Below are positions 1 to 37,510 of a stretch of DNA of 41,874 nt, piece by piece (the first letter of the stretch is position 1; every line of letters begins with the position of its first letter). A program made the translations under genes and the position numbers. The notes beneath the pieces are model-generated. The model made no database searches and was not told the origin of the DNA. It saw nothing but the letters and a program-made list of their open reading frames with translations. Source of the DNA: a virus; IMG/VR virus record IMGVR_UViG_3300046170_000170, positions 1 through 41,874 of that record, one strand, 5' to 3'.

Positions 1-56
1 TGCTGCTGGAAAAGGTCAAAGGTGAGATTCGATGTAGTCTGTGTCGATAAAGTCAT
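1..56 (-). CDS. Origin-spanning hypothetical early gene, 5' part
   Basis: The ATG at 56 follows a near-perfect AGGAGG ribosome binding site and encodes MTLSTQTTSNLTFDLFQQ before the window ends two bases into a codon. The last base of the window completes that codon as CAC, and the frame continues without a break into the gene at 41874-41586. The joined protein would have 114 residues. I do not recognise the family. Position next to the triple phage promoter and upstream of the RNA polymerase suggests an early takeover protein, which is inference only. Confidence 0.75.
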   Translation of the reverse strand, partial: MTLSTQTTSNLTFDLFQQ

Positions 57-68
57 GTCTGTGTCCTC

Positions 69-293
69 CTATTCACTAAGCGTCTCAGGAAACAGGTCCA
101 GTTGGACCGGAGTATCCAGAGGCAAATTGTCATTGGTATGAGACCCCAGCAGGTCGCTGAGGTTTGTCCTTGGTTCATGGCGTTTCCAACTACCTTCCCC
201 ACCCGTCAATGCCTTCAGATAGGCTTGAGCGGCTTCGTCGTTGAACGCTTGTACGCTTGCTCTGACTAGAGCTTCTCTGTTCGATGATTCCAT
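69..293 (-). CDS. Hypothetical early protein, 74 aa
   Basis: The ATG at 293 is preceded by a good ribosome binding site (gagaggag). The protein is short and soluble, with an N-terminal part that looks helical and an acidic C-terminus (LDLFPETLSE); there is no membrane segment. It is the first gene after the three tandem phage promoters at 344-444 and is followed after 12 bases by the origin-spanning gene, so the two probably share a transcript that runs on to the RNA polymerase gene. Family not recognised. Confidence 0.7.
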   Translation of the reverse strand: MESSNREALVRASVQAFNDEAAQAYLKALTGGEGSWKRHEPRTNLSDLLGSHTNDNLPLDTPVQLDLFPETLSE

Positions 294-343: not shown

Positions 344-362
344 CCATAGGTGGCCCCAGATT
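344..362 (-). promoter_or_regulatory. Phage RNA polymerase promoter, copy 1
   Basis: On the minus strand it reads AATCTGGGGCCACCTATGG. It differs at one base from copies 2, 3 and 5. The layout, about 17 bases ending in CTAT followed by GG, parallels the T7-type promoter that ends in CTATA before GGG, so initiation is predicted at the final GG. It lies nearest to the 74-aa gene. Confidence 0.75.
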
Positions 363-379
363 GCTGGGGGGTAGGTGGC

Positions 380-398
380 CCATAGGTGGTCCCAGATT
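380..398 (-). promoter_or_regulatory. Phage RNA polymerase promoter, copy 2
   Basis: On the minus strand it reads AATCTGGGACCACCTATGG, identical to copies 3 and 5. It is the middle of three tandem copies with start-to-start spacing of 36 and 46 bases. A partial extra copy of the GGTGGCCCAT part lies beside it at 371-383. Confidence 0.8.
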
Positions 399-425
399 GC
401 TCAGACGTGCCGATACAGTCGGGGT

Positions 426-444
426 CCATAGGTGGTCCCAGATT
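426..444 (-). promoter_or_regulatory. Phage RNA polymerase promoter, copy 3
   Basis: The minus strand carries the exact 19-base consensus AATCTGGGACCACCTATGG. It is the furthest upstream of the cluster and lies about 65 bases past the terminator at 511-546, so a new transcript starts where the late one ends. Confidence 0.8.
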
Positions 445-510: not shown

Positions 511-546
511 AAAAAAAAGGGGCCACCGAAATCAATCGGTAGCCCC
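511..546 (-). terminator. Rho-independent terminator ending the late unit
   Basis: The minus strand folds into an 11-bp stem with one T-G wobble (519-529 paired with 536-546) and a 6-base loop, followed by eight T residues (511-518). It follows the 146-aa gene that comes after the integrase, and separates the late and integration unit from the triple promoter. Confidence 0.9.
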
Positions 547-573
547 TTGTGGGTCTGTGTGTTGCGCTAGGCG

Positions 574-1024: not shown

Positions 1025-1999
1025 TTACACGTACTGTGCCATGTCGGACTGAAATCCGGCAAGGGCATCATCTTTGGTCTTCACGTACTTGGCGGTAGTC
1101 GCCTCGCTTATATGCCCAAGCTGCTTCATGATTAAGACAGTGGGCATCTTGACGTCATTAGCCAGCACAGAAGCCGCTGTGTGGCGTGTAACGTGGAAGA
1201 CGAAGTTGGGGTCATTACGTGCAAACTCGCGCTTGGCGAGACCCCAGCGGCGATAGAAGTTACGGTGTGTGTACTTCTCTGGGATGCTGATCATCAAGCG
1301 GATGACGGCGTCCTTGCACATGGCCAGCGGCACCGTGCGTTCCTTCTTGTTCTTGGAATGTGTGCTGGGGATGATGACCCAGTTCACTTCCTCGTCAACT
1401 ATAAGCTGACCACTGCACATCTTGACGATTTCTGTCTTCCTCATGCCGGTCATCGTTGCCACTGTCACCATGTCGGCCATCCATTGGTCGCCATTGTCGG
1501 TGAAGAATTGCTTGAGGTTGTCTAGTTCCTCTTTCGTGTAGACACGGGGTCGGCCCTGCGGCTCTTCGCCAAAGGCCAATCGTGGTGCTGACTTGATGAT
1601 ATGTTTGGCCTGAGCTGTCCTCAGAACCTTTGAGATGGTTGAGACATATCGGTTACATGTGCTGACCGAACTACCCTCTTCCGTAAGCTGAATCACGAAA
1701 TCATCGACGTCCATAGGAAGTATCGCGCTGATACTTAATGACGCCATGCCTTCGAACTCAAGAAACCGCTTGAGCTGGTTCATGCTACGGCCACGGTGTG
1801 TCTCGCTGGGCCACATCTCAGCAGCGTAGCGTTCAGCAAATGCCAAGAGTCCACCCTCGTCCCACTGTTCCGGTGTGCGTCTTAACTTAGGCGCAGCAAC
1901 GGGTGCAGGCGCTGCCACAGGTGTCGGTGTGACCGGCTCTGGTGCAGACTGGGTGGTAATCGGTGTGAAGTCGAAAAGATCGTTTTGTTCATAAGTCAT
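1025..1999 (-). CDS. int: Tyrosine recombinase integrase
   Basis: This 324-aa site-specific recombinase should insert the phage genome into the host chromosome at a tRNA gene. Residues 1-45 are a Pro/Ala-rich leader, about 50-140 the core-binding SAM-like domain, and about 150-320 the catalytic domain. The catalytic set is visible: R187 in MTGMRKTE, a lysine near 216-219, H269-V-T-R272, H296 in QLGHISEA, and the nucleophile Y305 in AKYVKT. The start has the ribosome site GGAG in front. An attP-like tRNA fragment lies directly upstream at 2081-2125. It is the main evidence that the phage is temperate. Confidence 0.95.
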   Translation of the reverse strand: MTYEQNDLFDFTPITTQSAPEPVTPTPVAAPAPVAAPKLRRTPEQWDEGGLLAFAERYAAEMWPSETHRGRSMNQLKRFLEFEGMASLSISAILPMDVDDFVIQLTEEGSSVSTCNRYVSTISKVLRTAQAKHIIKSAPRLAFGEEPQGRPRVYTKEELDNLKQFFTDNGDQWMADMVTVATMTGMRKTEIVKMCSGQLIVDEEVNWVIIPSTHSKNKKERTVPLAMCKDAVIRLMISIPEKYTHRNFYRRWGLAKREFARNDPNFVFHVTRHTAASVLANDVKMPTVLIMKQLGHISEATTAKYVKTKDDALAGFQSDMAQYV

Positions 2000-6150: not shown

Positions 6151-7245
6151 TACCAGCCTCCATCTCAGCTAGTCGCTGTTCTAGTTGTTCGATTTTCCTG
6201 TGAGCATCTTGCAGTGCCGACACCAGAATTGGTGTGATGCGTCCGTAGTCCATAGACATCATGTCATCATCAGCAGTGGACACAGCCTCTGGCATGACAT
6301 CAGCCATTTCTTGAGCGATGAAGCCCATAGACCGTGGGCCGTCAGGGTCAGCTTCCAGTTGTAGCTAACAGGGTTCATCTGCATCAGCTTGTCGGTTGCT
6401 TGCAGTGGTTCGATGTCTTGCTTGAGGCGTATGTCTGAGGTGGTGTTGTAGGTTGCCCCAGATGACGTTACCGATACACTTCCGACACCATTTCCTTGAC
6501 GCCTGAAAGAAACAACAACACCATCATTTGTACTCCGATTTGCGTACATTGCAGTGCCGGCACTACACGAACTAAATATGTCACCATTTGCTCTGATTGA
6601 ATGACCTACGGTATTATTGCTGAAACCCGGAACGCTTTGTGACGATTGACCAACCAGCAGGTTGTTGCTGTTGTCAACGTGCAGCGCACTAACGTCATCT
6701 GTCACGTTATAGATACTAAGCCCTGAGTTAGCCACGCCCGGATTTGCAGGGGTGATTTCCCAAACTTTACTGTTGGCTGTATTTTCCAAACGCACAGAGG
6801 CTGAATCGTTCCCAGCATAAAGGTGCATTAGTTTGCTTGGTGACGCAGTGCCGATGCCTACATTGCTTGAGAAGGTTACATCACCAGTAAAAGTGCCACC
6901 ACCGAATGGATTGCCCGTTGGGCCAGTCGGACCCGTAGGGCCAGTCGGTCCTGTAGAGCCGGTAGGTCCGGTTGGTCCTGCAACCGTGCTGTCTGCGCCT
7001 GTCGGTCCTGTGGGTCCTGTCGGACCAGTAGGTCCTGTTGGGCCGGTTCCACCATCGTTTCCGTCTGCACCAGCAGGTCCGGTGGGTCCTGTGGGTCCAG
7101 TCGGGCCAGTAGGTCCTGCGACTGTACTGTCAGCACCAGCTGGGCCAGTTGCACCAGTTGGTCCTTGTGATCCGGTTGGTCCTGTGGGTCCTGTTGGGCC
7201 AGTTGGTCCGACGATCTTGAATTGAGGTCCTATGTAGCTAGTCAT
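6143..7245 (-). pseudogene. Collagen-like tail fibre with S74 intramolecular chaperone, frame broken
   Basis: The ATG at 7245 overlaps the upstream stop (TAATG). After [13 protein letters not shown] come about 30 Gly-X-Y triplets (mostly GPT), then a beta-rich region ([17 protein letters not shown]). An S74-type chaperone domain follows, with [12 protein letters not shown] and MNPVSYNWK. Near 6350 the frame breaks; one base appears to be missing. The other frame continues [20 protein letters not shown], then the terminal coiled coil HRKIEQLEQRLAEME. The repaired protein would have 367 residues. S74 domains trimerise fibres and then cut themselves off. It may be functional if the break is a sequence error. 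Confidence 0.85.
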
Positions 7246-8072
7246 TATGCCAAGTCTCCGTGCAATGTCAGATAGACATCCGCCATGTCCCGTGCGCCAC
7301 CATCGTCGTGCATACAATCAGTGTTACAACTTGTCGTTGCTCTGCTTACAACCCCAGCGATATCACATTGCGAGTCATTGAAATTAGCGGAAGTTGTTAC
7401 GCTGTAGCCTGCATTTTGGGTGCTGTTGATAAAGCTGGTGCGATAATGACCCGTGCCAAGATCGGCTAATGCTGAGACATTGTAGCTGTCATTTGTGCTT
7501 ACAGTTCCTGTGCCAACATAGCTGTGCCAAACCTTCGCTGATCCCTGCCTTACATTCACACGGTGGCTGTTTGAGCCTTCGGAGTAGAGAACCAGATTGC
7601 CGTTGATGTTTCCTGCTGTCGGTCCTGATGGACCAGTCGGCCCTGTCGGACCCGTGGGTCCTGTTGGACCTGTTCCACCGTTGTTTCCAGCAGGGCCTTG
7701 TGGGCCAGTTGGTCCGGTTGGTCCTGTGCCGCCATCGTTTCCATCAGCACCGGCTGGTCCTGTTGGTCCTGCGGGTCCTTGTGGTCCGGTTGGTCCTGTT
7801 GGGCCAGCAACGGTACTGTCAGCACCAGTCGGGCCGGTAGGCCCTGTCGGTCCGGTGGGTCCTGTAGGGCCAGTCGCACCGTCGTTTCCATCAGCACCGG
7901 CTGGTCCTGTTGGTCCGGTGGGACCTGCGGCTCCAGTTGGCCCTGTCGGTCCAGCAACGGTGCTGTCCGCACCAGCCGCTCCTGTAGGGCCTGTTGGCCC
8001 AGTCGGTCCTGTAGGTCCGGTTGGTCCGGTTGGTCCTACGGTATCGACGTCAACTCCGATGTAAGTTCCCAT
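7245..8072 (-). CDS. Collagen-like tail fibre protein, 275 aa
   Basis: A 13-residue leader ([13 protein letters not shown]) is followed by a long Gly-X-Y region (about 13-150). It is mainly GPT with spaced inserts ([19 protein letters not shown]), which should form a collagen-type triple helix. The C-terminal about 110 residues are beta-rich and include [18 protein letters not shown] and end [11 protein letters not shown]; this end resembles the 115-aa protein at 5803-6150. Likely a trimeric virion fibre with a globular tip. The start lies 1 base after the upstream stop. Confidence 0.8.
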
Positions 8073-8073
8073 C

Positions 8074-8406
8074 CTATGTAATCTCCAAGATACTCATGAC
8101 CACGTCGCAGCTGCTTGAGGCTGATGATTTGACCTTGATGCTGTGCGTTGGTTCTAGGACGACCTTCTGGTCACCGCCGATCACCACGAGGCTTGAGCCG
8201 ACTGGGATAGGGGCTTCGTCAACGATGAAGGTGTCGTTCGAACCATCATTCAGCGTTACATCGACTGTGATTTGGCTGGAGGTCGTGTTTGCTATGGTCA
8301 AACCAATGACCGTCGTCTCTGTTGATGAGGGTACTGTGTAGCTGCCAATGGCAGTCAGGGCAGTACCAATCCCCCTGCTCGTCTTATTCTTAAATGCGTT
8401 TGCCAT
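8074..8406 (-). CDS. Virion/tail-associated beta-sandwich protein, 110 aa
   Basis: The sequence [15 protein letters not shown] is followed by alternating strands ([20 protein letters not shown], then [19 protein letters not shown]). This is a small conserved phage structural protein seen near tail fibres in marine phages. There are no membrane segments and cysteine is rare. It sits between two collagen-like fibre genes, so it may be a fibre collar or connector. Function not proven. Confidence 0.7.
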
Positions 8407-8413
8407 TGTGTGG

Positions 8414-9723
<1,310 letters not shown>

Positions 9724-9726
9724 GAT

Positions 9727-9903
9727 CTATGCCCTGCTCTTTCGTTTTTTCTTCGGTTTCGCCGTCTTTGCAGACGCGCGAAACGCAGCGGCTGTTGGCG
9801 CACCCTTTGTTCCTGGCTTACGCATTTTCTCACCCGAACCAGCCGCGATCCTCTTCTTCTTGGCGTGGATATTGGCGTAGAGGCCACGTTTTGGTTTCCT
9901 CAT
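9727..9903 (-). CDS. Small basic protein, 58 aa
   Basis: The ATG at 9903 overlaps the upstream TGA. The protein reads MRKPKRGLYANIHAKKKRIA, then AAGSGEKMRKPGTKGAPTAA and a Lys/Arg-rich tail. A protein with the 'I-x-AGSGE-x-MRKPG' motif is found in the head gene cluster of many marine phages. Its very high positive charge suggests nucleic acid or acidic capsid contacts. Function unknown. Confidence 0.75.
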   Translation of the reverse strand: MRKPKRGLYANIHAKKKRIAAGSGEKMRKPGTKGAPTAAAFRASAKTAKPKKKRKSRA

Positions 9904-10007
9904 GATTTGCGTCCCTTCTTGCGGGTCATCGCCTTTTTCTTAGCGGCGGCAGCTTTCTTCTTTCCGGCTTTCGTGTAGGGGTACTTTTTGCCCATGACGT
10001 ATGGCAT
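9900..10007 (-). CDS. Small basic protein, 35 aa
   Basis: The ATG at 10007 starts MPYVMGKKYPYTKAGKKKAA and ends in MTRKKGRKS. The KK(F/Y)PYTKAGKK motif recurs in small head-cluster proteins of marine phages. It lies 1 base after the preceding stop at 10009 and overlaps the next gene by 4 bases, so translation is probably coupled. Lysine makes up close to half of the chain; a DNA- or capsid-binding role is possible. Confidence 0.7.
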   Translation of the reverse strand: MPYVMGKKYPYTKAGKKKAAAAKKKAMTRKKGRKS

Positions 10008-10008
10008 T

Positions 10009-10251
10009 TCATTTGCTCCTGCGTGATTTCGAACCGCTGCATTTCCATTTCTTGCGAGACAGACGCAGAGGTGAGTTGGGGTCTTTTGCGGCTTTGGGGT
10101 GTTTCTTCATTTGACCGGCTGATCTGGCGCAGTAACTGTCGCCACGCTTGGTGCTGGGTGCGATGCTGTAACCCTTGGCGCCGTAGCGCACAGTTTTGGT
10201 CCGACCTGAGGCGGTCTTGACCTTCTTGCTGAACTTTTTGCCGGTAGCCAT
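10009..10251 (-). CDS. Conserved basic head-cluster protein, 80 aa
   Basis: The protein opens MATGKKFSKKVKTASGRTKT and carries RYGAKGYSIAPSTKRGDSYC, then SAGQMKKHPKAAKDPNSPLR and RKKWKCSGSKSRRSK. Two cysteines and a 'DPNSP-(L)-R-L-SR-x-KW-x-C' motif are typical of a small protein family found with capsid genes of marine and tailed phages. Very basic overall. It overlaps its upstream neighbour by 1 base. Confidence 0.75.
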   Translation of the reverse strand: MATGKKFSKKVKTASGRTKTVRYGAKGYSIAPSTKRGDSYCARSAGQMKKHPKAAKDPNSPLRLSRKKWKCSGSKSRRSK

Positions 10252-10559
10252 CAGACTTGTTTCTCCGTGGTAAGGAAGGCATCGAGGTTTTCGGCCTTGA
10301 GCCTTTTGACGATTTCTGCTGCGGAGTGTTCGCCATCCATGATGTTGAACCCCTCACGCATCCACTTCTCGACGATCACAGTCGGAATGGAAGCCACGCG
10401 CATGAAGTCGCCTTCACGGGTTTTCGTGCTTTCGTTTCGCTGTTCTTTGAGGGTGTCGAGGAAGGAAGTCGGAATTTCTTGGGTGTGGTGTCGAAAGACA
10501 CCGTCAGCGTCTGCACCATAGTCGGTACTGACGCCGACAAGGTTGACCTTGTCAGTCAT
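10251..10559 (-). CDS. Conserved head-cluster protein, 102 aa
   Basis: The sequence begins MTDKVNLVGVSTDYGADADG and has a conserved-looking core MRVASIPTVIVEKWMREGFN followed by an acidic helical end (SAAEIVKRLKAENLDAFLTT). Proteins with the 'RVASIP-x-x-(V)-x-E-KW' core lie just after the major capsid gene in related phages and may be head decoration or completion factors. The ATG at 10559 follows AAGGAG. No domain with a known activity is visible. Confidence 0.7.
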   Translation of the reverse strand: MTDKVNLVGVSTDYGADADGVFRHHTQEIPTSFLDTLKEQRNESTKTREGDFMRVASIPTVIVEKWMREGFNIMDGEHSAAEIVKRLKAENLDAFLTTEKQV

Positions 10560-10609
10560 TCATTTCTCCTTGATGGGATTAGATGAAGGATGTGAGGGGC
10601 AGCTTGTAA

Positions 10610-10636
10610 GGAGAGCAAACCAAGCTGTTGCTCCCC
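10610..10636 (-). terminator. Hairpin after the major capsid gene
   Basis: The minus strand forms GGGGAGCAA/TTTGCTCTCC-type pairing, about nine pairs with one mismatch around a 9-base loop, 23 bases after the capsid stop. No T-run follows. T7-type phages have a partial terminator at this place; this may be the equivalent or an mRNA-stabilising stem. Confidence 0.4.
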
Positions 10637-10658
10637 CCACTCCTATCAGTTCACGGCC

Positions 10659-12047
10659 TTAGGAAAGGCCGGTCAACATGCCTGATGCTTTTGGATTCAG
10701 GTGCATGAGGCCGTATTCCCCGACCACGAAATGGCGGTCAGAGTCACCGTTCTTGGCCAACAGTGTCCGTGAGAACGGACGCAGTACGGCAGACCGCCAC
10801 ATTGTGGGGTCAAGCAAGAAGGCGTGGGTGGTAAGCTGGTGACGGTTGAGGACAACCTTCAACGTGCCGTATGGGTTCACCATGATGTCAACCACATTGG
10901 TCAGCGTCTTGGTTTCATCGTTGAAGTTTCGTGTCCGTCCTGCTGAACCAGTAAAGCCAGCGACGATTTCTGAATCGGCTGGTTTGATCATCAGGATCGA
11001 AGGGTCACCTCCGGCTGCGTACAGAGCCTGATGGACATCCAGAAGTTTTGCTTCTGTCATCGCATCGGTTGAGTTGGAACCGGCATCAACAGACACACTT
11101 GAGTGGATGAGCTGCGTGGCTGAGTCCATTTCACGTGCTGTGTTTGAGTCGTTGCCGGTTACGGCTGCGTTGTCTTGACCGACATACGCAAATTCCAGAT
11201 CACGCTTGATTTCTTTCAACGCGCGACCAAGTTGGTCATTCATGTTCATTTGAGGTCGTTATGCTCAAATCGCCTTTCGGCTGCTGATGGTTATGCCCAT
11301 CAGATCGGACTATATCATGTCTGCGGGTTGCAGACCCCTGCGCTTCCACTCACTTGAGTGTACTCCTGTCGGATAGTCTCTGAACCTTCCGCTTTCACGG
11401 CTTGGCTGCTGATTGCCCCTTAGGGTTTCCCAGCAATTCACAGGGTTTATACTACGCTACCAAATTCAACGCAGTTTCCTTTGCACGGCCGTATGTTTTT
11501 ATGACATCGGCTGTGGCTGACACCATGACCTAAGTATGTTCGCCTGTTTTCGTTAGCTACAGACCGCCTTTCGGCAGCTCACAGTTTCCTGTGAGAGCAG
11601 ACTATATCATCATCCACTGGGGATGCCGTGCGCTTCGGACCACTTGGCCCTACTCCATTGCTGGATAGTCGTTGCACCTTCCGCTTTCGCGGCTTGGCTC
11701 AGGATTGCCCTCGTCTGTTTCGTTAGGGGTTTCCCTGAGTTCACACGGTTTTCGTCAACGCATTGCTACGCTGCGGCCCTCAAGGTTGAGGCTTTGGTCA
11801 GGATCTGGGTGTTGCCAGTGATCATGGTTGTCGCTGTAAGCGTTGCCATTGATGCGTCTGCACCCTCGATGGCCTTGTTGTCAGCGGCTGCTGCAAGGCT
11901 GTCGGTCTGATATTCGTAGACCCGCGCAGAAACTTTCTGCGGCTTAATCAGTGTGACCATTGGGGTATCGGTTGGCGAAATGTCTGTAATTACGTCAGAC
12001 ACGTCCTCAGCTTTACCCACCTGGTCGTAAGTGGAAAATACGCTCAT
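10659..12047 (-). CDS. Major capsid protein, split by two group I introns
   Basis: The exons are 12047-11789, 11528-11469 and 11236-10659. Joined, they encode 298 residues of the SU10/P22-like HK97-fold capsid family. Exon 1 gives MSVFSTYDQVGKAEDVSDVI, YEYQTDSL and NTQILTKA. The 60-nt exon 2 gives F-MVSATADVIKTYGRAKETA. Exon 3 continues Y-QLGRALKEIKRDLEF, KLLDVHQALYAAGGDPS and the end MHLNPKASGMLTGLS. Both junctions split a codon after its first base, and the joins restore the family pattern 'TK-x-F-x-VS-x-T-x-x-V' and 'A-Y-Q-L-x(4)-KE-I-KRD'. Unspliced mRNA stops seven codons into intron 1. About 400 copies of a capsid protein are normally needed, so splicing must be efficient. Confidence 0.9.
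11237..11468 (-). ncRNA. Group I intron 2 in the capsid gene, 232 nt
   Basis: All four conserved core elements are visible on the minus strand. P is AATTGCTGGGAAA (11438-11426), Q is AATCAGCAGCCAAG (11414-11401), R is GTTCAGAGACTATCC (11385-11371) and S is GATATAGTCC (11316-11307). P7 pairs GACTAT with ATAGTC and P4 pairs GCTG with CAGC. P1 is 7 bp: exon ACTGCGT with the internal guide GCGTAGT (11457-11451), with the expected U-G pair at the splice site. The last intron base is G. There is no open reading frame for a homing endonuclease. The splice sites are chosen by P1 and by restored protein similarity. Confidence 0.92.
11469..11528 (-). other. 60-nt mini-exon of the capsid gene
   Basis: This segment lies between the two introns and encodes the second part of a split Phe, nineteen residues MVSATADVIKTYGRAKETA, and the first base of a split Tyr. 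Its length is divisible by three, so skipping it would keep the frame. The encoded GRAKETA stretch matches the conserved helix of the capsid family and is missing from both flanking reading frames. Confidence 0.9.
11529..11788 (-). ncRNA. Group I intron 1 in the capsid gene, 260 nt
   Basis: Core elements are P (ACTCAGGGAAAC, from 11740), Q (AATCCTGAGCCAAGC, 11706-11692), R (GGTGCAACGACTATCC, 11678-11663) and S (GATATAGTC, 11608-11600). P7 pairs GACTAT (11670-11665) with ATAGTC (11605-11600). P4 pairs CTCAGG with CCTGAG. P1 is shorter: exon GCCT with guide GGGC (11779-11776) and a terminal U-G. It shares long near-identical blocks with intron 2, including AGCCAAGCCG, GAAAGCGGAAGGT, GACTATCC and GCCGAAAGGCG. 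No endonuclease frame. The 3' end is the G at 11529. The 5' boundary is less certain than for intron 2. Confidence 0.9.
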
Positions 12048-12079
12048 GGGATTTATTCCTCTCTATTAGCGTTGGGTTT

Positions 12080-13105
12080 CTATGCTTCCCAGCGTGAAAG
12101 GAGGACATCCGCAATATCGTCCAAGTCTTTGGAGGCTCGCATCTTCTCACGCGCTTTGGCGTTCGCTGCTTGCTTCCTGACAACCTCGTTCGGCGGCGCT
12201 TTCTTCGAACGCAGCACTTTCTTCTTGGCTGTCTGTTTTTTCTTCACGGTTGCTACTTTGCGACCCTCGTCGAACAAACGTGCCTTGTTGAGTATCTGTA
12301 TCACTACAGGGTCAACGTACTGGTTCACCTGTTCTTCGGGTAATCCTTGTGAAATGGCATACGACCTGATGTCGCTGTACATCTCATTGGACCACTCAGG
12401 GATCTGTTCGTTGAGAACCTTCACACATTCCTTGGCAGCTTCTTTCATGGCTGTCTGTTGCTGTGCTTGGAGTTCCCCGAAATAGCTATCAGCTTCTTCG
12501 GTCAGGAATTGCACGTCCTTGTAGGCTTCCGCAGCTTCTTTGCGTAGTTGAGCAAAATCTTCCGCAGACATCGACTTGGATGCAACGAGCATATCAACGT
12601 CTTGATACGGCTTGTATCGTTCCTGAGCTTGTTGAAGCAATCGATCAAAAACCACTTGGTTCTTTTGAATTGCGTTGTCAGCTTCCTTGCGCTGTTTGGC
12701 GACTTCTTGAGACTTGCGTGTGAGGCTCTTCTCAACCCCGAACAATCTCTTGAGACTTTTGATAGATGCCCGATGCGTTTCGCCATCGACGAGAATTTCG
12801 ACTTCAGTGTCATCATCCACAACTGGATCGTCATCTTCACTTTCGTCCTCGTCCTCATCACTTTCAGCTTCTTCGCTTTCTTCGGGGTCTTCATCTGCCT
12901 CTTCAAGTTCATCTGGGTCTAGTTCCTCTTCGCCCTCGTCATCGACAGTCTCTTCTTCGATTTCTGAGGTTGCCTCTTCGCTGTCGTCTTCTGATGGCTG
13001 AGTTTCCTCAGCGTCTTCCCAACGCGCCAAGATGGCGTCTTCCACGTTGCTCATGTCGAGAATACGTGGCTCTGTGGTTGAGGTTTCGTTCTGCACGTTG
13101 TTCAT
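12080..13105 (-). CDS. Scaffolding protein, 341 aa
   Basis: The chain is extremely acidic in its first third (about residues 28-95, long Glu/Asp runs such as EEETVDDEGEEELDPDELEE). Helical, Gln- and Lys-rich segments follow, and the C-terminus is strongly basic (VKKKQTAKKKVLRSKKAP and later) before DDIADVLLSRWEA. An acidic rod with a basic capsid-binding tail, immediately upstream of the capsid gene, is the hallmark of phage scaffolds. ATG at 13105 (MNNVQNETS) is chosen since it follows the previous stop by 4 bases; a longer reading overlaps that gene. The WED/RWE segment (ILARWEDAEE) recurs at the end as LLSRWEA. Confidence 0.85.
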   Translation of the reverse strand: MNNVQNETSTTEPRILDMSNVEDAILARWEDAEETQPSEDDSEEATSEIEEETVDDEGEEELDPDELEEADEDPEESEEAESDEDEDESEDDDPVVDDDTEVEILVDGETHRASIKSLKRLFGVEKSLTRKSQEVAKQRKEADNAIQKNQVVFDRLLQQAQERYKPYQDVDMLVASKSMSAEDFAQLRKEAAEAYKDVQFLTEEADSYFGELQAQQQTAMKEAAKECVKVLNEQIPEWSNEMYSDIRSYAISQGLPEEQVNQYVDPVVIQILNKARLFDEGRKVATVKKKQTAKKKVLRSKKAPPNEVVRKQAANAKAREKMRASKDLDDIADVLLSRWEA

Positions 13106-13109
13106 GGTG

Positions 13110-13385
13110 CTATTCTTCTTCCTCTTGATTGTTGTCATCATCGGCCTTGGTGACGATTTCGTCTTTGATTGCGACCCGCTGCTGTAGGGTGCTGACGATG
13201 TCAATCAGGGCACGGTAGTGGTGGTAGGCCATCTCGCGTTTGTCCCAATCTTCCGGTTTCGTGTTGCCGAAAGTCTGGAACTGGGCGTCTACCAGTGAAT
13301 TGATCGTGTTCGTGAAGGCTTCGCTGCTGAGTAGTTGTTCAGCGTCGTCGCCCATTTGCACGAGTTTGTCTTCTTGTTCTTCCAT
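13110..13385 (-). CDS. Small acidic head-cluster protein, 91 aa
   Basis: The ATG at 13385 follows AAGGAGAGCAA. The protein is acidic and helical, with a central KPEDWDKREMAYHHYRALID and a poly-Glu tail (DDDNNQEEEE). Small proteins between portal and scaffold with the 'W-x-x-RE-x-A-Y-x-x-YRAL' pattern are common in this type of head module. It probably takes part in head assembly. Function unknown. Confidence 0.75.
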   Translation of the reverse strand: MEEQEDKLVQMGDDAEQLLSSEAFTNTINSLVDAQFQTFGNTKPEDWDKREMAYHHYRALIDIVSTLQQRVAIKDEIVTKADDDNNQEEEE

Positions 13386-13439
13386 TTGCTCTCCTTAGAG
13401 TAAAATTTTCCATGTTTTACATGGTGTTATGACCCGCAT

Positions 13440-13456
13440 TTGAATCATTGATTCAA
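13440..13456. promoter_or_regulatory. Perfect 8-bp inverted repeat upstream of scaffold unit
   Basis: TTGAATCATTGATTCAA is a perfect palindrome around one central base, 55 bases upstream of the 91-aa gene. Its half-site is shared with the inverted repeat at 13512-13527. An operator or other protein-binding site is possible. Confidence 0.4.
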
Positions 13457-13511
13457 TTGGTTGAGGTTCCGTGATTTGGCACGGGAATTGCGAGTCAGTT
13501 CAGTGAGTTAC

Positions 13512-13527
13512 GATTCACACTTGAATC
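13512..13527. promoter_or_regulatory. Second GATTCA inverted repeat
   Basis: GATTCA and TGAATC are separated by four bases. The half-site equals that of the palindrome at 13440-13456, in opposite orientation. The two lie 72 bases apart, start to start. Confidence 0.35.
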
Positions 13528-13582
13528 ATACTCTTACGCATGGAAATGGGGGTTTCAGCCGCCCCCGTCTCTCCCTTGAAGG

Positions 13583-13610
13583 GGCCGCTTCGCAAGGCGG
13601 CCTCTTTTTT
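13583..13610 (+). terminator. Plus-strand terminator-like hairpin after the portal gene
   Basis: GGCCGC pairs with GCGGCC around an 8-base loop, followed by TCTTTTTT on the plus strand. On the minus strand, the direction of all nearby genes, the same stem has no T-run. It therefore looks like a terminator facing against the operon, one base from the portal stop codon. Confidence 0.55.
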
Positions 13611-13611
13611 G

Positions 13612-15636
13612 TTATCCAGTCGGGCTGGCTATGCCCCGCACATCCTCTGAATTACGCAGAACCTCAAGTTCGGCTTCATCGATGCGCTGCTTGTGGACGA
13701 ACTGGGATTCCTTGAGATCCATGTTGTCCGACTGTAGTGCGTGAGATGCCTCAGCCTTCGCGCGATCAATCTCAATCTTTGCGATTGTCGATTGTGCGTT
13801 GGTGCTGGCGTTCATCTCTGCGACTGCTGTCTGACGCTCTTGCAGCTCCATCTGCTTCATAGCCATCTGTGCCTGCATTTCCTGGGCAGGATCTGGCTGT
13901 GGTGGAGGGATCTGCTCTGGTGGTGTCAGGAACTCCTCAACATTGAGGATGCCCTGCTGTTCCAGAATCTTCTTCAGCATCGCAAATCTGTTGTTCATGC
14001 CGTACATCGGCTGAATGGCTGGGTCTTGGCTGAACAGGGAGTGCAGAGACAACATCTTCTGTGCCTCACGGTCTTGTTCGCCATAGCCAAGTTTCAGCTC
14101 AACCATGACGTCCCTCTTCTCTTTCCAAGAAGCGGGGTCCACCTCTACGTATGCACCAGAAATCTCCACGATCTTCTGTTGGCTCTCATTAGCAACCACC
14201 AGCGAGTAGATTTCGTGGAATAGCGATTTGACGAATTGAGCGAAATGTCTGGCTATTATCTTTTGTCGTTGCTGCCCCATAGTGGCGAGCTGCTCTACCA
14301 GTGCGGCAGAGTTTTGCTTTGATACCGCATCCTTGTTCAGACCAGTGTTTAGCGATGAAATGCCAGTGTTCTGCTCCTGATCCTCACTCAGCGCATCCAA
14401 TGTCTGAAAGACGAATGGGTTCAATGGTGCTTGTGGCATTGGGCTGATTGCGTCCGGTCTGGACACGTTGACTAGGCCACCCACTCTGTTGTCGATCAGC
14501 TCTCTTGGATTTGTGAGACCACCTTTGACGACCATGTATCTTGGATTGTTGGTGATCATGGCGTGATCTAGGATTGATCGGGTCAGGATAGTTCGGGCGT
14601 TTTGTGTCGCGCACAGTTTCTCCGCAAAGTTTGATCCATAGAAAGCGTGAGGTATTGGCAGAGGAACGAAGGTGACAAAAGGCCGTCTGTCCACTTCCTC
14701 GATGTCCAACAGTGCGTTTCCGGCCTTCACAACACGGTGAAGCGTAGCAACGCCAGTGCCTTCCACATCCATCATGATATAGGCTTCGTAGCAGAGAATA
14801 TTGCGGACTTGGTCTTGGTATCCGTGGCTGTTAAAGCCTCTATTCTCGCTGATGCCATCATGTCTGGCTAAGATTTCGGGGTCGGTTTCCAGTGTCACAT
14901 CTTCGTGATCACCTATGTCATCCAGCTTGTCTGAGTCTGGATACATTTCCCGCAGCTCCGACAAAGTTTTGTGGGTTCTGTGGGCGACAAAGTTGCTGTC
15001 CTCAAGGCTTTTGCATTGTGCCTCAACGACCAGCTCCTCTGGTGGGATTGCTTCGATGACAACCTGTGACGTGTCTCGCCTGACACCAATCGTGCCGGAA
15101 ACCATACCCATGTCGTCAGTCTTGCTGTCGATCAGTTCGATTTCATCCTGTGCCAGCAGCATATCAAGCTGGTCTTGGGTGATGGCTGTGAACTCTTCCT
15201 CGTCAACTTCCTCGCTTTCGCTCCAGAATACCTTCGTGCAGCCCACTCTGGCCATCAGGCCGTCATGGATCACAGTGGAAAATATGTCGAAACCATCGTT
15301 CTGTCTGAAGAGGACGTAATCGGTATAAGCGGAGCATATAGCTGCCGTTTGCACATCCTCTGGACCTTGTGGAGCGAATTTGACGATCCGATTGCCAGCG
15401 GAAAAGGTTTCCAATAGCGCAGCTTGCATCGATTGCACTGCATTGTAGACATCTTGGGAAACGAACTTGGAGTTTCCATCGTGCGCTGGTCGTGGCAGCC
15501 GTGCCTGATAGTAGTCTTGGACCTTCTTACGTTCACGTGATAGCTGGCTGTCGTAGTAACCGACTGAGGTTTTGATATTGTCCTCAACCAGCTTGACGAT
15601 TTCAGCATCGTCGAGCTTGCGATAGTCTGTTTTCAT
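13612..15636 (-). CDS. Portal protein, 674 aa
   Basis: The twelve-fold ring through which DNA enters the head. The N-terminus MKTDYRKLDDAEIVKLVEDN follows the terminase stop by 4 bases, which sets the start at 15636. The body has the portal-type pattern SVGYYDSQLSRERKKVQDYY, FSAGNRIVKFAP, GLMARVGCTKVFW, PIPHAFYGSNFAEKLCATQN and ILDHAMITNNPRYMV. The C-terminal 100 residues are a Gln/Met-rich coiled coil (AQMAMKQMELQERQTAVAEM) that would form the barrel. Length and pattern fit P22/SU10-like portals rather than the shorter T7 gp8. This argues for a mosaic head module. Confidence 0.88.
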   Translation of the reverse strand: MKTDYRKLDDAEIVKLVEDNIKTSVGYYDSQLSRERKKVQDYYQARLPRPAHDGNSKFVSQDVYNAVQSMQAALLETFSAGNRIVKFAPQGPEDVQTAAICSAYTDYVLFRQNDGFDIFSTVIHDGLMARVGCTKVFWSESEEVDEEEFTAITQDQLDMLLAQDEIELIDSKTDDMGMVSGTIGVRRDTSQVVIEAIPPEELVVEAQCKSLEDSNFVAHRTHKTLSELREMYPDSDKLDDIGDHEDVTLETDPEILARHDGISENRGFNSHGYQDQVRNILCYEAYIMMDVEGTGVATLHRVVKAGNALLDIEEVDRRPFVTFVPLPIPHAFYGSNFAEKLCATQNARTILTRSILDHAMITNNPRYMVVKGGLTNPRELIDNRVGGLVNVSRPDAISPMPQAPLNPFVFQTLDALSEDQEQNTGISSLNTGLNKDAVSKQNSAALVEQLATMGQQRQKIIARHFAQFVKSLFHEIYSLVVANESQQKIVEISGAYVEVDPASWKEKRDVMVELKLGYGEQDREAQKMLSLHSLFSQDPAIQPMYGMNNRFAMLKKILEQQGILNVEEFLTPPEQIPPPQPDPAQEMQAQMAMKQMELQERQTAVAEMNASTNAQSTIAKIEIDRAKAEASHALQSDNMDLKESQFVHKQRIDEAELEVLRNSEDVRGIASPTG

Positions 15637-15640
15637 TCGG

Positions 15641-17212
15641 TTACACCATTTCAATATAGAGGTCGTCTGGGATTTCGGTTGGCTCCCACGCACCCTCATG
15701 GACGTGATTTGCTAGGGCCAAGGCCATGACACAATCGTCATGGCAGTTCGCTTCAGCCTCCATCGCACCAGTTTCGGTGACGATGTAGGTCAGCATTTCC
15801 CTGATTGTTGTGAGGTCGTTGAGTTCCAGCTCACCCTCGCGCATTGATGCACGGAGCTGATCGATGATGAGAGGTTTAGTTTTTGCCGTGGTGGTGAAAC
15901 CCAGCTTGACCGTTTCTCTGTCTGTCAGCTTATCGACTTGGGTCTCCAAGTACATGTTGCTGTAAGCAAAGTCTTTGCCCAGCCGTGTGCATGTCAGGAT
16001 GCCGTGTGAGTTGTTTTCAACGATTATGAACGCTTCGTTGTAATATTCCCCAAGCGCATACAGGATCTCAGCAAAGAAATCAGGATGGACGTGGCCTCGC
16101 CACGTTGCGACTTGCCGTTTCTTGCTGTCCAAGACTTGCGCGACTGAATAGTCTCCGTTTCGGACGCCCATAGAGCTATCTGCGCCAACCACATAGGTTT
16201 CTCCTGGGTTGTGGGGGATGTAGGTAGTCAGCTCCCCTCGCCTGTTGTGAACGAACTCATCATTCTCCAATGCCAGACGTTCCTTCACATCTCTGGCTGT
16301 CTTGAGGCAGCTTTGAAGCTGCTCAGGATTGAAGACAGGTCGTCCAGTGGTGAGGAAGGCTTCTTCGGGTTCTGCTGGGTATTCCTGCCGAAACAAATCG
16401 ATGCCGTTTTGGGCGATCTTGCGTCTGCGGAACATGAGCTGACTGTCATCAAGGTCGTATTGCTCAACGAGGTCGTCTTCTTCGGGCGTGCGTTCAAAGT
16501 TGTCAGGCACATCCTCACGGTATTCTGGGTCACAGAACCATGGAATGAAGACTGGAACGAACCCATTTGTCCCGTCCACTGCACCACGCCAGAGGTCGTG
16601 ATAGATGCCGGTGACGCCATTTGCCGTCGATTCAACGAAGATGGCTGTGCCTTTTGTGTTCGGGATTGCCTGTGTCAGGCCGTTCCATATCTCTAGCGCC
16701 GTGCTTTTCGGCCAGAAGGCTAGTTCCGAGGCGTGAACGTGAGTAAGCGTTTCACCGCGTCCAACGCTGTCGCCGCCTGCTGTCGCCACAACGTAACTTG
16801 AGTCAAGAACATCGAACGACAACTCTCGTCTGCTTGAGTATTTTGTGTGCGGCCTAAGTATTTCGGGACAGTTTTCATGAAACCTCTTGGTCATGTCGAA
16901 CAATGCTCTGGTGCTATCACTATGATGTGTGATCACCATCGCTTTCTTCGCTTTTTGTTGGGAGACGGAGTGGTAAAGGTAGCCGCCTGTGTAGGTGCTG
17001 AGACCCTGCTGGCGAGCTTTGAGAATGATGACACGAACCTTGCCCTCACTCTCCATTTGCTTGGTTACTGCTTCATCAAGGATCTGTTGGGCCGGATTGA
17101 GTTCCAGCGGAGCGATGGCTCCATCCTTCGTGCGTATCTTCAAGGCTGATTTAGAGTAGAAACGGAAGTCTTCAAAAAGGCGCTTACGAACTTTCTGGAG
17201 TCTCTTGTCCAT
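15641..17212 (-). CDS. terL: Terminase large subunit, 523 aa
   Basis: The DNA-packaging motor. The N-terminal ATPase domain has a Walker A-like KARQQGLST (about 65-73) and a Walker B region around HASELAFW. The C-terminal nuclease domain has the acidic residues in YVVGADSSMG (about residue 347) and NCHDDCVMAL (about 490). The product ends DDLYIEMV. It overlaps the small-subunit gene by 29 bases and precedes portal by 4. Packaging type (cos or headful) cannot be seen from the protein; the circular closure of the sequence fits either circular permutation or terminal repeats. Confidence 0.93.
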   Translation of the reverse strand: MDKRLQKVRKRLFEDFRFYSKSALKIRTKDGAIAPLELNPAQQILDEAVTKQMESEGKVRVIILKARQQGLSTYTGGYLYHSVSQQKAKKAMVITHHSDSTRALFDMTKRFHENCPEILRPHTKYSSRRELSFDVLDSSYVVATAGGDSVGRGETLTHVHASELAFWPKSTALEIWNGLTQAIPNTKGTAIFVESTANGVTGIYHDLWRGAVDGTNGFVPVFIPWFCDPEYREDVPDNFERTPEEDDLVEQYDLDDSQLMFRRRKIAQNGIDLFRQEYPAEPEEAFLTTGRPVFNPEQLQSCLKTARDVKERLALENDEFVHNRRGELTTYIPHNPGETYVVGADSSMGVRNGDYSVAQVLDSKKRQVATWRGHVHPDFFAEILYALGEYYNEAFIIVENNSHGILTCTRLGKDFAYSNMYLETQVDKLTDRETVKLGFTTTAKTKPLIIDQLRASMREGELELNDLTTIREMLTYIVTETGAMEAEANCHDDCVMALALANHVHEGAWEPTEIPDDLYIEMV

Positions 17213-17675
17213 CTTCTTCCAACAGACTGCTCAGAAACTCTTCAGCCTTGCCGATTGAGACTTCTGATTTGCTGACGGGTTTGGAACGGGTGAAGTCAAG
17301 GACAAGGCGAGCTGCCGCAAGCCTTTCCCGTGTTTCTCCGGGTACTTGGACGATTTCCACAGCGGCTTCTAGTGCCTGCTTTGCGTACTCGTCCTCAATG
17401 TTGAATTTTTCTGCCATTATTTTAACCGCCTTTTTTGCTTCCTTCTTTGCTGCATCACGTATGGGTTCGATCTGATGCTTTCTAAATCCGTCCGGCACAC
17501 CTTTTGGTCTACCGGCATTTTTACGTGGCTTGGTTGACCACTGTCGTCTGAGTTCACGGCCCTCAGGTGTTTCCATGAGTGTCGCAAAGTAGTTTTTCTT
17601 TGGTGCTTTGTGAGGAGCCTTACCTTGCCCAACCTTCGAAGGTGACTTTGCCCTCGCTTTACGCTGCTGCGGCAT
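17184..17675 (-). CDS. terS: Probable terminase small subunit, 163 aa
   Basis: The start at 17675 (MPQQRKARAKSPSK) has AAAGGAAC in front. The N-terminal 60 residues are very basic, followed by KPRKNAGRPKGVPDGFRKHQ, which resembles a DNA-binding segment, and helices with AKQALEAAVEIVQVPGETRE and LVLDFTRSKPVSKSEVSIGK. The last motif (DF-x(3)-KP-x-S-x(5)-I) recurs in small terminase proteins. Size and place directly before the large subunit support the call. It recognises the phage DNA for packaging. Confidence 0.75.
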   Translation of the reverse strand: MPQQRKARAKSPSKVGQGKAPHKAPKKNYFATLMETPEGRELRRQWSTKPRKNAGRPKGVPDGFRKHQIEPIRDAAKKEAKKAVKIMAEKFNIEDEYAKQALEAAVEIVQVPGETRERLAAARLVLDFTRSKPVSKSEVSIGKAEEFLSSLLEEDGQETPESS

Positions 17676-19944
17676 TGGTTTTGTTCCTTTGTTGTCGTGC
17701 GATACGTTCGACGTATGGCAACAGGTGTTTTTCAGCCAATTCTGGCTGTCTGAGCCGCTGTTCAGCTTTTGCAACGATTTCTAGGGCAGCTTCGAGGGGG
17801 CGTGGCCCCAAGTTCGTTCCCAATTCGGTCAAAGCGTTCTGGAGAATGGCTTTGTCCATCAGGGGGATGGAATTATCGTCGTTGATGGCTCTGCGTTCTC
17901 TGTTGAGCACCTTTTGATTGTCGGCCTTGCCCTTTTCACGGGCTTGATCACGGTTTTGTGGCTCTGGGCTGTCATCTCTGACCCGTTCACGGACCATTTT
18001 CTGTTGGAGACGTGGATCAGTGTCCACGACCACGTTGATCCGCTGGATTAAAGGCGAAAGCATGTCATTTGAGATGCGTCCACCACGGTCTACGCTGATG
18101 CGATACTCGTTGATGGTCTTCTGCATCGTTGGTGAGACGCCAATGCGTTCCATAATGTTCAAGATGTCGGCTACACCACGTCTATCCAAGCCTGTGGCTT
18201 GTTCAACGGTATCTTGGACTGAGCCAGGAGTGGGCGCCGCACCCGCACGTGTGTTCGCTCTGACCTCAGCCTGTCTGTTTTGCCTCTCTGTCAGCTTTCG
18301 CTGCTGTTCTTCGGCTTCTGCCAACGCTCTTCCGGCTCTGAGGCTAGGTGCGGTTGGCTGCTGAGTGCCTTGTTGCTGTTGATCACGGAGGAATTTCGCC
18401 ACATTACTGCGGCGACCTGTGACTTTGTCGATTGTTCTTCCGGCAGCGACAGCTCCCAACTGGGCTGGGATAGATGCACCACCTGTCACTCCTGCCGCGG
18501 CTCCCGATAGACCCAAACGAGTGGGCAATTCGATCAAGGCGCGGTTGCTGTAGCCAGTATTCGTTGGGAGTGGGGAGAGTGCGTCTGTGAATTGGGACAG
18601 ACCGCCGACATATCCACGGTTGTGGAGTTCGGTCAGCTCATTTGACTGTCTGAACAGCCTGACGAGCTGCTGACCTTCAGCAGAGGCACCAAGTAGACGT
18701 TGGGTTGCCTCCATTTCGGCTTTCCCGACTACTGTTTTGGTCTTGGTTCTGGCCTGTTTTCTTGCTCTGGTGACTGCCGCCTTGTCAGCTCTGACTTGGT
18801 CGCTGTCTGAATCTTTGGGTTTCAGCTCATTCTTGATGTCGCCCATTGTCTGGTCGATGTCACTGACGAGACGGGTGTGAACCAGATCCACGGCTGCTCT
18901 TGCGCCTTTTGCATCAGTGGCATTGGAAACATTGTTGACGTCGAAGTCGTTCTCTTCTGCTGCTTGCTGGATGCGTTGCGCTACGTCTGCGGCTGCTTCT
19001 GGGTCTGTTGGAGTGTATCCACCAGGAAGAGCTGAACGCACACCTCTGCCAATGCCTGCACCAGTTTCGATTGCTGTTCTTGTTCCACCACCGATAGTGC
19101 CGCCGATTGCTGCTGTATCAATCGCACGGTCAATCAGCTCGTCTGGGGTGTATTCGCCACCCATTGCGGCTGTTGATCCTACGATTGCAGCTTCTTGAGA
19201 CAGTTCAGTTCCTGCCTCTCCTACTGTGGAGCCAGCGATGCGTCTACCGATAGCTGCGGCAGCGTTGGGTTTGCCTTTCTTGATCAGCTCCTCAACGACT
19301 TGCTCACCAGTCATATTGGCCAGTTTTGACTTTGGGATGACTTTGCCAGCGCCAAAACGGTCAAGGATGCCTATGAGGACACCCACTCCGCTTGCAACTG
19401 CGCTGTCGTATTGTCCGGTTTTCTCTTCTTGCTCCATAGCAGTTTCACCCGCACCCATGAGTGCAGATCCTGCGATTGTGGTGCCAGACAGCACAGCGGC
19501 TGCTGGAAGTGAGAAAGGAGCAGTGAGAGCTGCCAGACCAGTGCCAGCGATTGCTGCACCGCCAGAGGCTGCATTTTCAGCCGTCTTTTCGCCAATCCAA
19601 CCAAGTGCCGCACTGATGCCACCATCTTCGTAGGTGTCAGCCAGAGAGCCTGTGTAGGTGGGCTTGTAGCCACCTTCTTGGATGTCTTTCTCCTGCTGGG
19701 CAACAATGCCGGAGCCAATGCCCTTCACTGTGTCTGATCCAACAAGGTCGCCGACAACTTCGACGCCCTTGCCGAACATCTGTTGTGCGCGGTCAACGCT
19801 GTATCCGAAGGCACTGTCAGTTGGCCCGCTGCGTTCCTGTTGTCTGGCTTGCCTTATCATTTGAGCGATGGCTTGGGCATCTGCTGTATTTCCGGCTGCG
19901 TCTGCCTTTTGCAGTGCGCCGACAAGCTCTTGCATTGTCGCCAT
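17659..19944 (-). CDS. Internal virion / ejection protein, 761 aa
   Basis: The protein starts MATMQELVGALQKADAAGNT, an ejection-protein type N-terminal helix pair. Long Ala/Gly-rich hydrophobic stretches follow (about 125-190, with AAIAGTGLAALTAPFSLPAA), and further ones near 240-310. The second half is helical and charged, with QQQ-rich linkers. Amphipathic, membrane-prone internal proteins of this size are expelled into the cell to form a trans-envelope channel in podoviruses. No enzyme motif is visible. It lies 11 bases after the transglycosylase gene and overlaps terS by 17. Confidence 0.75.
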   Translation of the reverse strand: MATMQELVGALQKADAAGNTADAQAIAQMIRQARQQERSGPTDSAFGYSVDRAQQMFGKGVEVVGDLVGSDTVKGIGSGIVAQQEKDIQEGGYKPTYTGSLADTYEDGGISAALGWIGEKTAENAASGGAAIAGTGLAALTAPFSLPAAAVLSGTTIAGSALMGAGETAMEQEEKTGQYDSAVASGVGVLIGILDRFGAGKVIPKSKLANMTGEQVVEELIKKGKPNAAAAIGRRIAGSTVGEAGTELSQEAAIVGSTAAMGGEYTPDELIDRAIDTAAIGGTIGGGTRTAIETGAGIGRGVRSALPGGYTPTDPEAAADVAQRIQQAAEENDFDVNNVSNATDAKGARAAVDLVHTRLVSDIDQTMGDIKNELKPKDSDSDQVRADKAAVTRARKQARTKTKTVVGKAEMEATQRLLGASAEGQQLVRLFRQSNELTELHNRGYVGGLSQFTDALSPLPTNTGYSNRALIELPTRLGLSGAAAGVTGGASIPAQLGAVAAGRTIDKVTGRRSNVAKFLRDQQQQGTQQPTAPSLRAGRALAEAEEQQRKLTERQNRQAEVRANTRAGAAPTPGSVQDTVEQATGLDRRGVADILNIMERIGVSPTMQKTINEYRISVDRGGRISNDMLSPLIQRINVVVDTDPRLQQKMVRERVRDDSPEPQNRDQAREKGKADNQKVLNRERRAINDDNSIPLMDKAILQNALTELGTNLGPRPLEAALEIVAKAEQRLRQPELAEKHLLPYVERIARQQRNKTNAAAA

Positions 19945-19955
19945 GCTTAATGCTC

Positions 19956-21549: not shown

Positions 21550-21551
21550 AT

Positions 21552-22587
21552 CTAGAACGTCACATTGTCATTGTAGAAACCGAAATTGCCACCACGTGGA
21601 ACCGCTGGTGGCATGGTTGGTGTGGGTGGCTGCTGTTGCTTGAACAAGTCAGCAATGTTTCCACCAGCACCGAAGCCCATCATGGCTCCTGAGAGTGCAG
21701 CCGTGTATGGGTTAGCTGTGTTTGGCCTCACCTGTCCGACAGCCGGTAGACCACCCAATAGATTGTTGAACCCACCATATTGGTTCATCGCAAAGTCGCG
21801 CTGGCGTTCGAACAGATCACGATCAGCGTCAAGCTGACCTTGCCGGTCTGTCTGGAACGCACTGCCACCTCTTGTGAGCATGTTTCCGATGTTGGAACCC
21901 ATGCCAAATCCGATGCCGTAGGTGTTCTTCAAGCCTTCATTGGCCCGCATCATGTTTGAGATGTCTTGAGTGTTTGACTTCAGATACTGGTTGGTCAGGT
22001 TGTTGAAGACACCAGACGCAACGTCAGCACGGCGGTCATCCAATGCACGTTGGGCGATTGCCTCTTGGACCCCTGCCCTCGATGAGTTCGTGTTTCCCGT
22101 GCCGGAAGCAGCAGTGTTGATTCCTGGCATGGTTTGCTCATCAAATCGGCGCTGGCTATCACGCATTGCTGCATCTATGAGAGACTGCGCCTGCGGTGAG
22201 CTTGTAGCGTAATTGACGGCATTATCTAAGGTTGGCCCAGAAGCACGGTCATAGATGTTTCCAAAATTTGTACCGAAGCCAGCACCTTGGTTCATGAAAC
22301 CAGACGCACCACCCATTGCTCCACGACCAAAATCAGCCATGTAATTGAAGCCTTCACGTGACATCGGGTCCATTCCGGCATAGGTAGAGCCGCCATAGGC
22401 TCCTGTTGCCAGCGCATCATTCAATGCGCCTTCAGCATTGCCGAATAGACGTTGGTAGTAGGGTTCCTTCAGGTTGTAGGGCCGCATCTGCTGCTCTACA
22501 GCGTAGCGATTGGCGTTTGCGCTGTGCTTGGCTGCTTTATTCCCGAAATAACCGCCGATCAGTGATCCTGCTATTTCTCCGACTCAT
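21552..22587 (-). pseudogene. Internal core protein, 5' frame broken near 22582
   Basis: A good ribosome site (GAGGAAGAAC) precedes ATG at 22587, which reads only two sensible codons before the frame is lost. One base further on, the open frame reads GEIAGSLIGGYFGNKAAKHS, ANANRYAVEQQ, then MRPYNLKEPYYQRLFGNAEG. Removing the T at 22584 or a nearby base joins them as MSGEIAGS..., 344 aa. The glycine-zipper start, the RRFDEQTMPGINTAASGTGN segment and the Gln/Gly-rich end resemble internal core proteins of marine podoviruses. A shorter start at 22487 is the alternative if the break is real. Confidence 0.75.
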
Positions 22588-22605
22588 GTTGTTCTTCCTC
22601 TTGCT

Positions 22606-22884: not shown

Positions 22885-22885
22885 G

Positions 22886-24506: not shown

Positions 24507-24507
24507 T

Positions 24508-26043: not shown

Positions 26044-26057
26044 GGTGGTCCCAGATT
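26039..26057 (-). promoter_or_regulatory. Phage RNA polymerase promoter, copy 4 (late)
   Basis: On the minus strand it reads AATCTGGGACCACCTTAGG. It matches the consensus except for TA in place of AT just before the final GG. It is the only phage promoter found upstream of the 25-kb structural and lysis unit, so it probably drives all late genes. It overlaps the stop codon of the plus-strand membrane gene. Confidence 0.78.
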
Positions 26058-26088
26058 CAACAAGGGCAAACAAAGTTCGAAATGGCAT

Positions 26089-37084: not shown

Positions 37085-37107
37085 GGATGCTCTTCCTTTC
37101 CAGTCGG

Positions 37108-37506: not shown

Positions 37507-37510
37507 CGCC

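Follow-up and report, generated by a model that had tools for sequence, protein, structure and literature searches.

Putative promoters of a T7-type phage RNA polymerase: a probable exchange together with the polymerase gene and a late-class ending shared by relatives

Described phage promoters and the five sites of the window

The promoters of T7, T3, SP6 and K11 are A/T-rich at -17 to -13 and are repeated on one strand at gene boundaries, where they are used by a cognate single-subunit polymerase of the same family; the -7 to +1 core common to them is CACTATAG (PMC13029058). In LUZ100, a temperate-like T7-type Pseudomonas phage, the integrase gene and a terminator are followed by a phage promoter and then by the polymerase gene, and additional phage promoters precede the middle and late genes. 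These promoters were mapped by RNA sequencing, the one between the integrase terminator and the polymerase lying directly ahead of the latter, and a positive feedback loop has been proposed (PMC10134795). Cyanophage Syn5, with the promoter ATTGGGCACCCGTAA, provides a marine example with a CACC core (PMC3950665). The integrase-carrying Autographiviridae CRP-125 (a Roseobacter phage) and Pasto (a Rhizobium phage) have the gene order integrase-polymerase-SSB-primase and a one-strand repeated motif with a CAC core after the polymerase. The CRP-125 motif, ATTAGGTTGCACCATAG, flanks the polymerase on both sides and recurs at other unit starts; the Pasto motif, CCCCGCACACTAGG, follows the polymerase, precedes the portal gene and recurs close to the end of the genome. 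The word 'promoter' is absent from the paper on roseophages including CRP-125, and a literature search for the motif strings found no relevant paper among those listed.

The window analysed here is the whole 41,874-nt virus record IMGVR_UViG_3300046170_000170 (positions 1 to 41,874). Both of its strands were scanned for a 19-nt consensus with up to three mismatches, and the chance level was taken from dinucleotide shuffles. Exactly five matches and no others were found (1, 0, 0, 2 and 0 changes, in order of position), as compared to a shuffle mean of 0.01, and the next best site anywhere in the window matches at 13 of 19 positions. The scan recovered precisely the five sites that the initial annotation had listed as carrying at most two changes each. 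Its further statements, that all share one orientation and lie between genes or at a gene end, were borne out as well: 5/5 are on the minus strand, and all are outside convincing genes. With +1 set at the first G of the terminal GG, the sites are as follows.

426-444, minus strand: promoter-like site 1 of the upstream cluster, AATCTGGGACCACCTATGG, 0 changes; predicted +1 G at 427; the ortholog in contig L110 (below) reads ACAGCGAGACCACCTAAGG
380-398, minus strand: promoter-like site 2 of the upstream cluster, exact consensus; predicted +1 at 381
344-362, minus strand: promoter-like site 3 of the same cluster, with G in place of A at -9 as its one change; predicted +1 at 345
38291-38309, minus strand: promoter-like site after the polymerase gene, 0 changes; predicted +1 at 38292; orthologs in contigs L006, L012 and L013
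26039-26057, minus strand: putative late promoter site, AATCTGGGACCACCTTAGG, two changes; predicted +1 at 26040

The three cluster copies (344-444), spaced 36 and 46 nt, lie between a terminator (517-548) and the gene at 69-293. The site at 38291-38309 begins 11 nt past the polymerase stop, upstream of the genes for an ssDNA-binding protein and replication proteins, while that at 26039-26057 is in a gap of ~600 nt preceding the virion genes, overlapped by an unconvincing 69-aa ORF (25879-26088).

All five sites have CAC at -7 to -5 and G at +1, and are A/T-rich at -17 to -13. Given that the CAC core and the start G are spaced as in CACTATAG, the sites are T7-class in layout, with a new upstream half. 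They differ from the T7, T3, SP6 and K11 promoters in the -17 to -8 stretch (AATCTGGGAC), in having CTAT or CTTA at -4 to -1, and in number, with five copies only, three of them in tandem ahead of the polymerase operon. The substitution of CACC-TAT for the classical CACTATA, at -4 to -1, counts against a promoter reading. The earlier description of the consensus as unlike T7 or SP6 thus applies to the upstream half, but not to -7 to +1, which keeps CAC, four bases and G. The early and middle sites end in TATGG, whereas the late site ends in TTAGG, its two changes falling at -2 and -1 (CACC-TTAGG).

The copies are multiple, in one orientation and at gene-unit boundaries, and the same plan is found in relatives (below), as in T7-class promoters. 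From sequence comparison, we consider it very probable that the five sites serve the phage's own T7-type RNA polymerase as promoters, and that each has two functional parts. They would represent a new sequence version of a known kind, and the polymerase is likely to have a new promoter specificity. The arrangement resembles that of LUZ100, which has one mapped promoter ahead of the polymerase as compared to three here (PMC10134795); those of the window are predicted from comparison. Unlike LUZ100, the window has no recognised MarR-like gene among the proteins tested. Syn5 shares the GGG followed by the CACC core and the small number of promoters per genome (two), but its promoter is shorter, with another CAC-to-start distance (PMC3950665). 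The CRP-125 and Pasto motifs differ from that of the window, their polymerases are ~26-27% identical to the window's, and their virion genes are T7-like, whereas those of the window are not.

The polymerase and the proposed transcription units

The gene at 38321-41071 (minus strand) encodes a T7-type single-subunit RNA polymerase of 916 aa, recognised by Pfam, phmmer and Foldseek. The RNA_pol domain (PF00940, E 4e-73) covers its catalytic half, and phmmer aligns residues 17-833, nearly the full length, with T7 RNAP (E 3e-58). Its best matches in the phage collection and among cultured relatives are ~27% identical, and a scan of the genome contigs with the polymerase found no relative. The predicted model has a moderate mean pLDDT of 70.5, and its best Foldseek matches are T7 RNAP structures, including the promoter complex 1cez. 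A predicted β-hairpin (strands 731-746 and 749-764, with low confidence at the tip) occupies the position of the specificity loop, ~731-764. In T7 RNAP, residues R746 and R756 of this loop contact the promoter. By alignment and by eye, R737, K739, R751 and R753 correspond to T7 R746, N748, R756 and Q758, respectively. Both R737 and R751 are invariant in the window, L006, L012 and L013, while residue 739 (K or R) tracks base -11 (G or A), which, with three sequences, is only a lead. With the family domain, the nearly full-length match and the predicted specificity hairpin all present, the polymerase is T7-class.

The window has no repeat at its ends. When the ends are joined, a ribosome-binding site, an ATG and a 114-aa ORF are formed across the join, and relatives carry the integrase and then the polymerase on one contig, in agreement with a closed circle. 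Only if the contig is read as a circle does the cluster at 344-444 precede the early genes; it is then followed by three small genes and the polymerase gene, with the site at 38291-38309 ~4.0 kb further on. The other features that define the units are listed here.

1025-1999, minus strand: tyrosine integrase gene, upstream of the terminator and the promoter cluster
517-548, minus strand: intrinsic terminator between the integrase operon/late unit and the promoter cluster
69-293, minus strand: 74-aa gene, the first of the small early genes that follow the cluster
41586-41874 plus about 1-56, minus strand: 114-aa ORF across the contig ends, ahead of the 124-aa gene
41215-41589, minus strand: small early gene (124 aa)
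37511-38152, minus strand: gp2.5-like ssDNA-binding protein gene, with a likely true start close to 38068; the first of the replication genes to follow the promoter
31629-31656, minus strand: extra terminator-like hairpin within the replication unit, after the DUF3310 gene
28154-28190, minus strand: intrinsic terminator after the thymidylate synthase gene, at the end of the replication unit
22886-24409, minus strand: virion protein gene, used as the anchor for the late promoter in relatives

Both terminators noted initially fold as genuine hairpins and carry U8 tails, with energies of -30.8 kcal/mol (z -5.7) and -21.4 kcal/mol (z -3.6). The early unit extends from the cluster to the polymerase, the replication unit from 38309 to the terminator at 28154-28190, and the late unit from 26057 to the terminator at 517-548. 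The original three-unit scheme is broadly right, with amendments: the early unit requires the closed circle and includes the polymerase itself, an extra terminator-like hairpin lies within the replication unit, and a 510-aa gene (26361-27893) falls outside all three units, between the late promoter and the terminator at 28154-28190. This gene, which is placed like a cargo gene, matches nothing in Pfam or PHROG; PADLOC gives only a non-significant hit (E 0.027), and the viral contigs yielded no relative. Sigma-70 scans did not find sites in excess of those in shuffled sequence, and we therefore name no host promoter. A 5' hairpin after the middle sites of the window and L006 is not claimed, as L012 gives z -0.2.

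The genome has the phage-encoded single-subunit polymerase and the T7-like replication genes of the Autographiviridae, but not their virion gene set and order. A T7-type polymerase/replication module (28195-41071) is joined to a non-T7-like virion module (7245-25614), in which tail-type genes precede the terminase, portal, scaffold and capsid genes and the portal is nearest to phages such as UFV-P2 and NV1 (~29% identity). The same combination recurs in uncultured relatives.

Probable exchange of the polymerase with its putative promoters and the late-class ending

Two contigs from sample 3300049222, L006 (IMGVR 3300049222_000147) and L110 (3300049222_000280), are 98.8-100% identical to the window outside one block. 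From their common sample, identity and shared site, we infer that these separate contigs represent one phage population. In L006, the DNA is 99-100% identical to the window from about 38000 to 31653, and the ssDNA-binding protein and the helicase are 99% and 100% identical, whereas the C-terminal part of the polymerase is only 68-69% identical and the site after the polymerase reads ACAGCGAGACCACCTAAGG. In L110, the integrase is identical to that of the window, with a 98.8% match over 4 kb up to the cluster; the 235 bases ahead of the site contain two mismatches, and the site itself, again ACAGCGAGACCACCTAAGG, contains six changes. As compared to the window consensus, ACAGCGAGACCACCTAAGG is changed only at -16 to -13, -11 and -1. 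The same new sequence thus occupies both orthologous positions, before the early genes (L110) and after the polymerase (L006), and the sequences flanking the two copies differ. At the two site positions checked, the promoter sequence changed together with the polymerase.

Since the sites on either side of the polymerase, 4 kb from each other, carry the same new sequence, one recombination event that replaced the block is the simplest account. A single block of ~4 kb holding the polymerase and the promoters has therefore probably been exchanged. It also holds three small early genes of unknown function, which could encode another DNA-binding protein, a point that counts against our main reading. 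Its left edge lies exactly at the first promoter and its right edge 100-200 bases past the second (L006:1-1400; L110:8790-8842). The late site of this population was not found, as a search via the 510-aa gene gave no contig. If all promoters follow the polymerase, it would read ACAGCGAGACCACC with TTAGG, while an unchanged AATCTGGG would argue against strict matching to the polymerase.

A motif search of related genomes, proposed earlier as a check, found several relatives with their own promoter versions at equivalent places. In L012 and L013, whose polymerases are 53-54% identical to the window's, TGAGTGGGACCACCTAAGA lies at the same place, just after the polymerase stop. Among the exact-consensus sites of the window and the L006/L110 and L012 types, -10 to -2 (GACCACCTA) is unchanged, and the changes fall at -17 to -13, -11, -1 and +2. 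Exact matches to TCTGGGACCACCTATGG in three other viral contigs (L007, L008 and L009) were rejected as chance, since these contigs are unrelated by DNA comparison and the matches are inside genes.

Relatives were also collected with the virion protein encoded at 22886-24409, which retrieved 73 loci (0.73 Mb). Its best match in the collection searched is ~34% identical, and the clade has no close cultured member there. A T7-type polymerase gene is present in 13 of the 24 records tested, L006's own included. G011, G015 and G007 each have three main sites, one immediately ahead of the polymerase, one immediately past it and one upstream of the virion gene, and G019 has the same three and one more. 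None lies on the other strand (shuffle mean 0), and each of these four genomes has its own upstream half. In the first three, the upstream copy is ~50-65 nt ahead of the polymerase match with no early gene between, further GTCCACCC sites lie before the integrase, and the start region reads CATTA at the site preceding the polymerase, CATTG at the one following it and CTTAGG at the one ahead of the virion genes. The CAC core of these G011-type relatives is one base further from the purine start, which counts against the promoter reading, and the scans made found no such set in G020, G004 and G002, which also have T7-type polymerases. Overall, the comparison with relatives supports the original proposal of promoters for the phage's own polymerase at the early, replication and late genes.

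The sequence CCACCCTTAGG occurs 24 times among the 73 loci, once per locus, with 14 different upstream halves and mostly followed by AGA or GGA. All 24 copies are in the forward orientation and 1.2-2.7 kb upstream of the virion gene, whereas the reverse strand and a reversed control pattern gave no occurrence in the same 0.73 Mb. The late site of the window (CACC-TTAGG) lies 1.6 kb before the same virion gene, and TTAGG is common to the late sites of the relatives. Since the same ending is present at the same place in 24 relatives, its two departures from the consensus, previously taken as scatter, are best read as a late-class signature.

Alternative readings and proposed working

The sites might instead be repressor operators at control points, silencing the genome in a lysogen, as the phage carries an integrase and may be temperate. 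The integrase gene adjoins the cluster, the exchanged block includes the three small early genes, and repressor sites near a phage promoter have been proposed for T7-like temperate phages (PMC10134795). We regard this as very unlikely: the sites are non-palindromic and strictly one-directional, with a T7-class core and start G; the sets in G011, G015 and G007 flank the polymerase directly; and the 24 late sites keep their start-region signature. It is more improbable still that the polymerase uses only the upstream triplet and the middle site, the late site being a remnant or weak and the late genes being reached by read-through. The changes at -2 and -1 would fit such decay, and T7-type enzymes can be very processive, as is that of Syn5, which extends >37 kb from a single promoter (PMC3950665), but these changes match the ending conserved in 24 relatives at the equivalent place, and a terminator lies upstream of the late site. 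A role as origin or iteron repeats in DNA replication is hardly tenable. Three of the copies do cluster, and T7-type promoters can also serve in priming replication, but the remaining copies stand singly at unit boundaries and ahead of virion genes, and relatives usually have just one at each boundary. Even as promoters, the sites could still be used in origin priming.

Under the preferred reading, as promoters of the resident polymerase, we infer polymerase binding, start points, timing and relative strength at the five sites as follows. About -17 to -8 would be matched to the resident polymerase and homogenised within the genome, while the CAC core and the start region would form a T7-class melting and start signal. 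Because the early unit contains the polymerase itself, its initial transcription must depend on the host polymerase, which would produce the first polymerase transcript upon injection or induction. Self-amplification is implied by the upstream triplet, in that the phage polymerase would amplify its own early operon from three tandem promoters. The site just past the polymerase gene would then serve this enzyme for the replication and nucleotide genes, and the late site for the virion, lysis and integrase genes.

It is possible, if short of probable, that the whole clade uses a two-part promoter grammar, in which a polymerase-matched upstream half is rewritten genome-wide upon cassette exchange and a clade-fixed, class-specific start region (TTAGG for late) sets late timing or strength. 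If so, the window and L006/L110 would represent a natural swap of transcription specificity, making the phage transcriptionally orthogonal to its near-twin. Given that the two are near-identical but differ in polymerase and promoter, they form a natural matched pair that permits direct tests of specificity change, in which bases -16 to -13 and -11 and polymerase residues 739 and 753 are of interest. The pair also bears on whether cassette exchange isolates phage lineages or protects them from co-infecting relatives. Besides this natural exchange and the conserved late-class ending, which are the points of interest here, the relatives offer further polymerase-promoter pairs and a testable signature.

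Some minor observations concern the same genomes. A megablast search of window positions 1-25000 against the phage collection gave no match. Collagen-like tail fibre genes with dense repeats in 9-base steps (6259-9112) dominate any genome repeat search. In L110, similarity to the window DNA stops ahead of ~4805, except for one 312-base piece at 88%, and L110:1-4800 is probably another exchanged block, near the tail-fibre genes. In CRP-125, the promoter-like ATTAGGTTGCACCATAG is present in five copies (3389, 5930, 7554, 16904 and 36548) that are unannotated in its record. Pasto has a second repeated motif, TAGTCACTCAAGGGTGAC, at 550, 1299, 3531, 8866, 11854 and 12368; it lies near the polymerase and early genes, is distinct from the CAC-core motif, and is possibly an operator.
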